Shown here: positions 3,942-47,677 of the stretch, piece after piece
Layout: every line of letters begins with the position of its first letter
How positions within the stretch are numbered: the stretch's first letter is position 1
Source of the DNA: Candidatus Melainabacteria bacterium
GTDB taxonomy: Bacteria > Cyanobacteriota > Vampirovibrionia > Obscuribacterales > Obscuribacteraceae
DNA length: 64,000 nucleotides
Assembly: GCA_013288645.1 (NCBI GenBank)
Contig: JABDBL010000004.1
Span: forward strand, 60,057 to 124,056
Reading direction: 5' to 3'
Program-made: the position numbers and the translations under genes
The notes under the pieces: model-generated
Databases searched by the model: none
What the model saw: the letters and a program-made list of their open reading frames with translations, nothing else
What the model was told of the DNA's origin: nothing

Positions 3942-5246
3942 CTAGGGTGAAATTCTATAGCGATCACGCGGGTATAACGTAGCTTGTCTGACATTACTGA
4001 GATGCAGAATCTGAGCAGTCAGTCTTTCCAAGCCGATTGCTAAGCCACCATGTGGAGGCATACCAATTTCGAACATACGTAAATGATCTTCGAAAGATTC
4101 TGGGTTGATGGAACGTTTTTCGAGTGCATTTTCAAGATCGCTGCGACGATGAAGGCGCTGTCCACCGGTGGTGATTTCTAGTCCTTCAAAAAGTAAGTCA
4201 AAGCTTTCAGCAGCACCTCTATCTCCTCTTGGATGAGTATAAAAAGGTCTGCCGGATAGTGGAAAGCCAATAACAAAAACGGCGGCTATATTAGTTTCTT
4301 TTTTGGCAATTTCACATAATTGACGCTCGGCAAGGGGATCCAAATCGTCAATGAGATCGTCTCTGCCGAAATTATCTTTCAGTTTTTGCAAGCAATCAGC
4401 AAATTCCCATATTGGCACTGTTAACATAGAAGGCAGGGGTTCTCTGTTATGTCTCTTCAGTAGAGCCACATAATTTTCGTTTATCTGCTCAAAAATAAAA
4501 GTTAAAAGCTCACGTTCTAATTGAATAACTTCTTCAGGACCGTCTATAAATCCCATCTCTAAATCTAATGAACAGTATTCAGTAAGATGACGACTACTAG
4601 CATGCGGTTCTGCTCGATAAACATGTCCGGTTTCAAATACTCTTTCTAAGCCGGCTACACCATGCTCTTTGTAGAACTGAGGGCTTTGAGCAAGATAAGC
4701 CGAGCGCTCAAAATACTTAATGGCAAAAAGACTAGTACCGCCCTCGGTGCCACTGGAAACAATTTTAGAAGTAATTATTTCAGTAAAATGCCGCTCTTGC
4801 AAAAATTGCCGCAAATATTGCAAAATGGCAGCCTGTATTTTAAAAATGTCGCCTACTTGTTCGTTCCGCAAAGAAAGCGCACGGTAAGTAAGTAAGGTGT
4901 CTATACCTACTTCACTAATATTTGAGGAGGAATTAAAAGGTAAAGTAAGGCTCACTTCGTTGAGCGCGGTAATGTCTTTGAGCTCTAATTCCAATCCGGA
5001 AGGGGACCGGGGTTCGTTTTTAATTTGACCGATAATTTCAACCGGCATTTCCAGCTTGAGATTGAGATGCCGCCAAGCCGATGTATCGGCAACGCACTGT
5101 ATTTCCCCAGTACAGTCCTTTAAAACAATAAAGGTAGTGCGCGCTAATTCGCGTAATCGATAAATCCAACCGCGAATAAGTATTGTCTCGCTAGTCGATG
5201 GTTTAAGGGTATTAATGAGTACTCGGACACGCTTTTCCATAGTCAT
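3942..5246 (-). CDS. aspS: Aspartyl-tRNA synthetase, short archaeal-type/possibly nondiscriminating form
   Basis: 434 aa; OB-fold ILIRGWIYRLRELARTTFIVLKDCTGEIQCV; class II motif 2 FETGHVYRAEPHASSRHLTEYCSLDLEMGFI; motif 3 GGLAIGLERL. Confidence 0.88.
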   Translation of the reverse strand: MTMEKRVRVLINTLKPSTSETILIRGWIYRLRELARTTFIVLKDCTGEIQCVADTSAWRHLNLKLEMPVEIIGQIKNEPRSPSGLELELKDITALNEVSLTLPFNSSSNISEVGIDTLLTYRALSLRNEQVGDIFKIQAAILQYLRQFLQERHFTEIITSKIVSSGTEGGTSLFAIKYFERSAYLAQSPQFYKEHGVAGLERVFETGHVYRAEPHASSRHLTEYCSLDLEMGFIDGPEEVIQLERELLTFIFEQINENYVALLKRHNREPLPSMLTVPIWEFADCLQKLKDNFGRDDLIDDLDPLAERQLCEIAKKETNIAAVFVIGFPLSGRPFYTHPRGDRGAAESFDLLFEGLEITTGGQRLHRRSDLENALEKRSINPESFEDHLRMFEIGMPPHGGLAIGLERLTAQILHLSNVRQATLYPRDRYRISP

Positions 5247-5251
5247 GATTA

Positions 5252-5462
5252 TTCCTAAGCATTTGTTATCTCAAATGCTGGAACCATAAAAATGGCGGTG
5301 CCATCCAGCTTCTACTCATGTAGCTCTTATTTATTACTGTATCGTAGCAATTACGCTTCGACTTAATAAGGCCTGTTCTTGATAAGTGCGATATTTTTAT
5401 AGACTTACTTAGAACTTCCGGTTCAGCCAAATCTCTCCGAGGGGTCTATCCTCTTCAATGAG
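5252..5462 (-). promoter_or_regulatory. Candidate T-box leader (translational type) upstream of aspS
   Basis: Minus strand: antisequestrator GCTGGA-[TGGCACCG]-CCAT-TTTT-ATGG-T-TCCAGC (5277-5309) with T-box bulge UGGCACC; competing hairpin TTCC-A-GCATTTG-AGATAA-CAAATGC-TTA-GGAA (5252-5283) pairs with the SD GGAA 5 nt before ATG 5246; upstream AGAGA element and ATAGAC/GTCTAT stem. Confidence 0.75.
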
Positions 5463-5469
5463 TGCTGGT

Positions 5470-5497
5470 ATTATAACAAACGAATATGCTTTGGCAA
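5470..5497 (-). promoter_or_regulatory. Sigma70-like promoter of the aspS leader
   Basis: Minus strand TTGCCA (5492-5497) - 16 nt - TATAAT (5470-5475), predicting a TSS near 5462. Confidence 0.6.
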
Positions 5498-5515: not shown

Positions 5516-6418
5516 TTAGCCTTTGGACTGCAAATCAAGCCTTAGGGTCAAGCAGCAGACCGAGCCCCCCGCTAAACCAAATTTATCCACTGGCACTGCA
5601 ATTATTGAATAACCTCTTTCTTGCAATATATTTTTGAGCTTATCGGAACATTGCCAGAGAACTATTTTGTCGTCAATATTCACAAGGTTACAAACGAAAT
5701 TGAATGCATCTTCTTTATCGAGCGCTATCAACTTGTCCGCATATACACGCTCTTTAATAAGTTTTTGCGACTGCTCAGAAAAAGCATCAGGGTAATAAAT
5801 TATGTCACCATATTTAAGAGGGCTAAGACTCAGATCAAGATGATAAAAGCGAGAGGACAATAATTCTAAAGCCACAACTTCTCTTCCATAATACTCTTGT
5901 ATATACACACTCGCTTCTTTACTAGAGCGCGGCCCATAACCAGACCAGAAGAGTTGACGATAATTGTCCCATATACAATCACCAGCTCCTTCTTGGAAAA
6001 GTCCGGTCGGCAATTCCTGGACAGTTTTTACCAATCCTTGTTTTTTTGCCTTGTGGAAATACTGAGCAAAGTATTTCTCCTCTGGCTGTCTTTCTTTATA
6101 ATGAAAGCGCGCTAAAAGTGTTCGTCCATCCAAAATAATGGCAGCATTAGCCGTAAAGACCATGTCTGGCACCCCGGACTCTTGCTTAATCAGATTAACA
6201 GCAATGCCTAAAGATTGAAAAGTTTGATACAGATATTGCCATTGCTGGCTGGCGATTTGCTTAAACTGACTAGAATTATCGCTCCATTTTTGTGGTTCCA
6301 TCCATTGATTAATTTCATAAGTAACGGCAAAATAGTCTGGTGCGCTCATTAAAAGTCGGGAAATGGGAGCTGACTTATCTTTGCTAATTTCCTTTGCTGG
6401 TGTGATCTCACTAGACAT
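5516..6418 (-). CDS. Arginine deiminase/dimethylargininase-superfamily amidinohydrolase (ArgZ/DDAH-like)
   Basis: RLLMSAPDYFAVTYEINQWM...PDMVFTANAA...FQEGAGDCIWD...YHLDLSLSPL...GGSVCCLTL; catalytic His and Cys contexts recognisable. Confidence 0.8.
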   Translation of the reverse strand: MSSEITPAKEISKDKSAPISRLLMSAPDYFAVTYEINQWMEPQKWSDNSSQFKQIASQQWQYLYQTFQSLGIAVNLIKQESGVPDMVFTANAAIILDGRTLLARFHYKERQPEEKYFAQYFHKAKKQGLVKTVQELPTGLFQEGAGDCIWDNYRQLFWSGYGPRSSKEASVYIQEYYGREVVALELLSSRFYHLDLSLSPLKYGDIIYYPDAFSEQSQKLIKERVYADKLIALDKEDAFNFVCNLVNIDDKIVLWQCSDKLKNILQERGYSIIAVPVDKFGLAGGSVCCLTLRLDLQSKG

Positions 6419-47473: not shown

Positions 47474-47600
47474 AAATATTTTCAGAACAAATTATCATGG
47501 ACAATTATCCACTATTCAAAGCGCGCAATTGTGCATAAATCATTTGAATTACTAAAGGGACAATCAAACTTAAGTTTCCAAGATTGTATTCTTATGAGTA

Positions 47601-47653
47601 TAGGTGATGGAGTCCGCCTTTAACCGCCTTGTGGCTGATGACGCCTACCAGAT
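47601..47653 (+). promoter_or_regulatory. Fluoride riboswitch (crcB motif)
   Basis: TAGGTGATGGAGTCCGCCTTTAACCGCCTTGTGGCTGATGACGCCTACC matches the conserved crcB motif (GGyGATGG.GTyCGCC...CTGATGrC..CTAC) immediately upstream of crcB. Confidence 0.92.
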
Positions 47654-47677
47654 AGCTAATTTTGCAATTGGAGGCGT

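Follow-up and report, generated by a model that had tools for sequence, protein, structure and literature searches.

T-boxes have been placed by survey in the Firmicutes, Actinobacteria, Chloroflexi, Deinococcus-Thermus and Geobacter (PMC3766115). Translational T-boxes are mostly actinobacterial, often with a short Stem I and the specifier in its apical loop, and T-boxes carry a conserved purine 3' of the specifier (PMC7583486). The TBDB translational model was run on actinobacterial genomes and on class I matches with a truncated Stem I (PMC7778990). T-box control of a redundant AspRS and GatCAB has been described in Clostridium acetobutylicum (Saad et al. 2012, 2013, as cited in PMC4206432).

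Here we describe a complete T-box leader at 5463-5247 on the minus strand of the window (the whole 64,000-nucleotide stretch of DNA that was analysed), lying before the gene for a second, archaeal-type aspartyl-tRNA synthetase, AspRS2, at 3942-5246. It is highly likely that this short-Stem I T-box senses the charging of tRNA-Asp and controls translation of AspRS2, an inducible back-up AspRS that has spread horizontally together with its leader.

Results

The leader and its gene comprise the following features.

5470-5497, minus strand: sigma-70-like promoter TTGCCA-16-TATAAT, 11/12 consensus bases, ending 6 nt before Stem I
5433-5462, minus strand: ultrashort Stem I; base CUC 5462-5460 / GAG 5435-5433, kink-turn with two G-A elements, hairpin GAGG 5453-5450 / CCUC 5442-5439
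5444-5446, minus strand: specifier GAC (Asp), in the 7-nt apical loop AUAGACC (5449-5443)
5357-5431, minus strand: Stem II with S-turn; UUUGGCU 5431-5425 / AGUCGAA 5363-5357, with GAA 5424-5422 opposite AUUA 5367-5364
5325-5356, minus strand: Stem IIA/B region, putative pseudoknot domain, aligned with the corresponding stretch of RF00230
5312-5323, minus strand: Stem III, CUAC / GUAG (helix 7)
5277-5309, minus strand: antisequestrator; A1 GCUGGA 5309-5304, bulge UGGCACC 5303-5297, A2 GCCAU-UUUU-AUGG(U) ~5296-5283, A1' UCCAGC 5282-5277
5252-5283, minus strand: sequestrator hairpin UUCC-A-GCAUUUG / CAAAUGC-UUA-GGAA; GCAUUUG 5278-5272 / CAAAUGC 5265-5259, extended by UUCC 5283-5280 / GGAA 5255-5252
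5244-5246, minus strand: start codon ATG of AspRS2
3942-5246, minus strand: AspRS2, archaeal-type aspartyl-tRNA synthetase, 434 aa (NF003483)

The earlier note had proposed a T-box from the letters of the DNA, and the Rfam T-box model RF00230 aligned with the leader from its first to its last position (40.4 bits, E=1.6e-7, 601 nt searched). This score lies below the gathering score of 93 bits, and a standard Rfam scan of the window therefore omits the leader. The shortfall is due to the ultrashort Stem I, from which ~70 nt of the distal part of the model are missing. An ileS leader of Nonomuraea (Actinomycetota), located by tblastn, likewise scored 40.4 bits; thus forms with a short Stem I fall outside what RF00230 accepts. 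The related leaders L032 and L031 reached 55.7 and 53.2 bits. A quick RF00230 profile search of the window's own genome missed the leader, and its negatives are no evidence.

A leave-one-out covariance model, constructed from 13 homologous leaders with the window excluded, scored the window leader at 133.1 bits (E=2.2e-36, from a rough calibration) as its sole real match in 64 kb. In the covariation alignment of 13 sequences and 42 consensus pairs, 94.3% of cells were paired and compensatory double changes were present in 21 of the 42 pairs. The covariation score was 0.412, compared with 0.186 in shuffles (0/500 as high), a control inflated by sequence relatedness, and with at most 0.098 when partners were slid, a control that preserves relatedness. 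Stem I helices 1 and 2 were paired in 100% of sequences, with one pair changing from GC to AU in two of them. Helices 3 to 7, the Stem II, IIA/B and III features of the T-box class, carried compensatory changes: six of seven pairs in helix 3 of Stem II (94.5% paired), three of five in helix 6 of the IIA/B region (84.4% paired) and four of five in helix 7 (92.3% paired). The A1 and A1' strands were invariant among the aligned leaders, and the bulge read UGGCACC or UGGUACC in all of them. The folding energy of the window leader was unremarkable (z=-1.78), and hence it is homology and covariation that make the case for a T-box, stability playing no part. The structure is plainly under selection. 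With the Rfam match, the homologous leaders, the covariation and the structural landmarks all bearing out the original proposal, the leader is very probably a genuine T-box that reads uncharged tRNA-Asp.

Several elements had been named beforehand. The promoter was present as described, an equally good one arising in 2 of 300 shuffles. The antisequestrator has the T-box form attributed to it, with A1, bulge, A2 and A1' all in place; the bulge is of 7 nt, the T-box standard, and not of 8 as had been counted. A Stem I-like fold, which had escaped assignment by eye, was found in the CUC/GAG base, kink-turn and 4-bp hairpin, a truncated Stem I without the elbow-binding module and with the specifier in a 7-nt apical loop of the form ANAGACC. 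In Stem II, a distal extension is peculiar to the window sequence, and the S-turn carries AUUA where most relatives have AGUA, GAA...AGUA being otherwise conserved. A supposed basal stem, ATAGAC/GTCTAT (5449-5444 with 5404-5399), is complementary, yet was rejected as a conserved element because GUCUAU sits in an insertion found only in the window and ATAGAC contains the specifier.

The competing hairpin that had been predicted between the A1' strand and the Shine-Dalgarno was seen in the sequestrator, which takes up A1' and the Shine-Dalgarno-like GGAA. When both states of the window leader were folded singly over a slightly longer stretch, the OFF and ON folds, described as mutually exclusive in the earlier note, came to -24.9 and -22.2 kcal/mol respectively. 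The predicted ensemble without tRNA favoured OFF (-26.6 versus -20.2 kcal/mol), and the mean unpaired probability of the ribosome-binding region fell from 0.61 in ON to 0.40 in OFF. The corresponding fall was from 0.60 to 0.24 in L031 and from 0.60 to 0.12 in L044; the effect was slight in several leaders from Acidobacteriota and Gammaproteobacteria and absent from L032. In most homologous leaders, the predicted OFF fold occupies the Shine-Dalgarno and AUG, with L032 an exception and L033 and L034 ambiguous. Complementarity between the ribosome-binding site and A1' is weak in the window alone (duplex p=0.18), and the combined p of 7e-8 across leaders is overstated because the sequences are related.

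These features bear on the level of control. A T-box acting on transcription, with the competing hairpin serving as an imperfect or Rho-assisted terminator, would accord with the fact that most known T-boxes regulate transcription (PMC7583486), with the GC-rich stem and UUUUU directly before the start codon in L033 and L034, and with the terminator-like hairpins and U-tracts of the Paraclostridium AspRS2 leader. We nevertheless regard it as unlikely: neither the window leader nor most relatives have a U-tract after the competing hairpin, this hairpin includes the Shine-Dalgarno and reaches the start codon or stops just short of it, and the sole terminator-like match of the window leader (5306-5290) corresponds to the antisequestrator itself. 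Since there is no U-tract and the 3' strand of the antisequestrator can pair with the Shine-Dalgarno and start region, aspS2 is probably controlled at the level of translation. The earlier suggestion of translational control is likely right, in view of the missing U-tract and of the pairing that A1' can form with the ribosome-binding region in the majority of homologues; it does not extend to L032, where no switch is seen. In L033 and L034 the U-run may allow termination, and the translational reading carries a reservation for these two leaders.

We assigned the specifier by comparison with other T-boxes. The GAC at 5446-5444 is invariant in 14 leaders, at the specifier register. From the specifier 3'-ward, the shared order is three specifier nucleotides, one nucleotide, a 4-nt stem strand and N-GAG, paralleled by GAC A UCCC AGAG in a clostridial AspRS2 T-box (L099) and by AUC A CCCC GGAG in the Nonomuraea ileS leader (L097). 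This common register identifies GAC as the specifier. It had been one of two candidates left unassigned by the earlier note; the other, the AAC of GAACCGG, falls within the S-turn part of Stem II and lacks conservation. Directly 3' of the specifier, 14/14 leaders have C in place of the usual purine; a purine at this position is a usual feature of T-boxes, not known to be indispensable.

The genome's own tRNA-Asp has the anticodon GUC and the 3' end CCCG-CCA (G73). The UGGC at 5303-5300 is complementary to its terminal GCCA, in agreement with the pairing suggested at the outset. As tRNA-Asn also ends in GCCA, the bulge alone cannot tell Asp from Asn; the specifier distinguishes them.

The gene under the leader had been called aspS. 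It does encode an AspRS; what had not been foreseen is that this is a second, archaeal-type enzyme, whose gene and leader behave as a rare, horizontally moving unit. AspRS2 scored 471 bits against NF003483 (cut-off 353), and the closest solved chain is 1n9w, a Thermus-type non-discriminating AspRS2. All 15 genomes that carry the T-box also encode a bacterial AspRS scoring above the curated cut-off, and 11/15 encode a true AsnRS. AspRS2 is therefore redundant for Asp-tRNA and, in most carriers, unneeded for Asn-tRNA.

That distribution, together with the specifier, weighs against a T-box that reads tRNA-Asn for tRNA-dependent asparagine synthesis, with AspRS2 a non-discriminating enzyme working with GatCAB as in C. 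acetobutylicum. Such a role would suit the NCBIfam name of NF003483, aspartate--tRNA(Asn) ligase, the GCCA end of tRNA-Asn, the absence of any AsnRS found in the window's genome (72% complete) and the precedent cited in PMC4206432. However, the leader has no conserved AAC, whereas GAC occupies the specifier position without exception; 11 of the 15 carriers own a true AsnRS, and the clostridial plasmid AspRS2 T-box also reads GAC. We consider a tRNA-Asn sensor decidedly improbable.

It is scarcely credible that the leader is not a working T-box at all, being instead a protein-binding leader or a decayed, inactive T-box, as its score of 40.4 against a threshold of 93 and its non-consensus features (the C that follows the specifier, the AUUA of the S-turn) might suggest, given the selection on structure evident from covariation and the leave-one-out model and the equal score of the Nonomuraea ileS leader, by which the low value reflects a short Stem I.

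To return to the tRNA-Asp T-box, we sought its distribution by a protein scan of an 85,462-genome collection with AspRS2. This revealed 16 relatives, 56-70% identical, in Scytonematopsis (Cyanobacteriota), several Acidobacteriota, three Gammaproteobacteria MAGs, a Pseudomonadales MAG, Myxococcota and a Proteobacteria MAG. A full leader was present at the loci of 12 relatives, and a thirteenth (L104) on another contig of the genome of L043. R1, a search for the leader, gave one clear match per genome in 15 genomes, always before AspRS2; 14 were full and that of L039 was truncated. Homologues in Cyanobacteriota, Acidobacteriota, Gammaproteobacteria and Myxococcota fall outside the surveyed distribution (PMC3766115), in keeping with the early remark that a T-box in this lineage would be unusual.

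R1 detected no T-box leader before 29 AspRS2 genes of the window's own family (~40-48% identical), and L042, inside the same protein clade, is without a detectable T-box. Genome samples were drawn from the phylum of the window (388), the phylum of Scytonematopsis (388), the phylum of L033 (396), the class of L035 (369) and the phylum of L044 (197), and contained no carriers beyond those already known. As few candidates were scored per genome, the module can safely be called rare, a precise frequency being beyond these samples. In a protein tree built by a quick method, the T-box AspRS2 sequences formed a clade with 100% support, in which the Gammaproteobacteria were nested among Acidobacteriota and the window paired with Scytonematopsis (96). 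Inspection of open reading frames in the 3-kb flanks revealed no conserved gene neighbourhood, the neighbours varying between loci. The patchy rarity, the nested tree and the differing neighbours lead us to read gene and leader as a horizontally moving unit, apparently mobile between phyla.

Individual loci showed further peculiarities. At L039 / L105 (Solibacteraceae SbA4), the leader is reduced to its 3' part and coding-like sequence stands in place of the rest, whether through natural truncation or through a join made in assembly. L040 has ACGG at ~2980-2985, where relatives show ATGG at the start codon; its start codon is therefore altered or misread. In the window, the gene directly upstream (5516-6418, minus strand) is arginine dihydrolase/dimethylargininase-like, with all matches below curated cut-offs, and a fluoride riboswitch (crcB motif, RF01734) lies at 47594-47654 on the plus strand (60.6 bits, over threshold).

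Other T-boxes were also encountered. One carrier genome, a MAG labelled Gammaproteobacteria JOPF141, has a second T-box before an IleRS-like ORF (L101 635-880, G105:C325), with a long Stem I, the specifier AUC-A, a score of 75.9 bits to RF00230 and a terminator-like hairpin; this contig could be contamination. In L099 (3109-3450) and L100 (3094-3440), a T-box and then a second T-box antiterminator precede a plasmid AspRS2, and in L099 each of the two T-box elements is followed by a terminator-like U-tract. Weak R1/R2 matches at L062-L065 (up to 25 bits) proved to be noise on inspection, and L102 and L103 look like coding or unrelated sequence. Close AspRS2 relatives were not found in viral contigs; the single pattern match to a virus-borne candidate, L096, is not a T-box.

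Discussion

We infer the following course of regulation. With tRNA-Asp charged, or with no tRNA bound, the 3' strand of the antisequestrator would pair with the Shine-Dalgarno and start region, keeping translation low. The anticodon GUC of uncharged tRNA-Asp would pair with the GAC of the Stem I loop, docked against the S-turn of Stem II, while the 3' GCCA of the tRNA would pair with the UGGC of the bulge; thus bound, the tRNA would stabilise the antisequestrator and free the ribosome-binding site. AspRS2 would then be induced when the housekeeping AspRS fails to keep tRNA-Asp charged, be it through aspartate shortage or through inhibition of AspRS, and leader and gene would have spread together horizontally.

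Perhaps AspRS2 serves as a back-up for an inhibited AspRS, as the regulatory logic and the existence of known AspRS inhibitors would suggest; the microcin C class is described as such in PMC9239234. A more specific version, which we offer tentatively and think doubtful, is that of a self-contained, mobile spare-synthetase cassette in at least four phyla, in which an ultrashort translational tRNA-Asp T-box would be coupled to an archaeal-type AspRS insensitive to natural inhibitors such as microcin C-like nucleotides and induced when the resident AspRS is blocked.

The findings suggest that short-Stem I T-boxes have been missed in other phyla, owing to the long Stem I that is built into the Rfam model. 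Literature searches returned no report of T-boxes in Acidobacteria or Melainabacteria, older T-box surveys aside; priority in these phyla is not certain. The module would be a very small tRNA sensor, with a 7-nt specifier loop whose neighbouring base breaks the purine rule, in phyla new to T-boxes. It is also a clear, directly testable instance in which a redundant synthetase and its riboswitch travel together.

Among described systems, the actinobacterial translational ileS T-boxes (Sherwood et al. 2015), in the account given of them in PMC7583486, share the short Stem I without an elbow-binding module, the apical-loop specifier, the Stem II S-turn, the IIA/B region and, probably, an antisequestrator opposed to a Shine-Dalgarno sequestrator. 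Compared with that account, the window family reads Asp and not Ile, has C and not a purine after the specifier, and precedes a second, archaeal-type AspRS in Acidobacteriota, Cyanobacteriota, Gammaproteobacteria and Myxococcota. With respect to RF00230, the window leader matches the whole model, yet falls below the gathering score and lacks the distal Stem I. The Paraclostridium/Clostridium plasmid AspRS2 T-boxes (L099 and L100; Bacillota) precede the same kind of gene, with AspRS2 44-45% identical, and the specifier of L099 is likewise GAC. Unlike the window family, they have a long canonical Stem I, a second T-box element in tandem and scores over the RF00230 threshold (118.3 and 109.5 bits), and L099 has terminator-like hairpins with U-tracts that the window leader does not. 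The T-box of C. acetobutylicum, as cited in PMC4206432, also controls a redundant AspRS; there, binding of two tRNAs and an amidation pathway are reported, whereas the module described here presents GAC alone and stands by itself.
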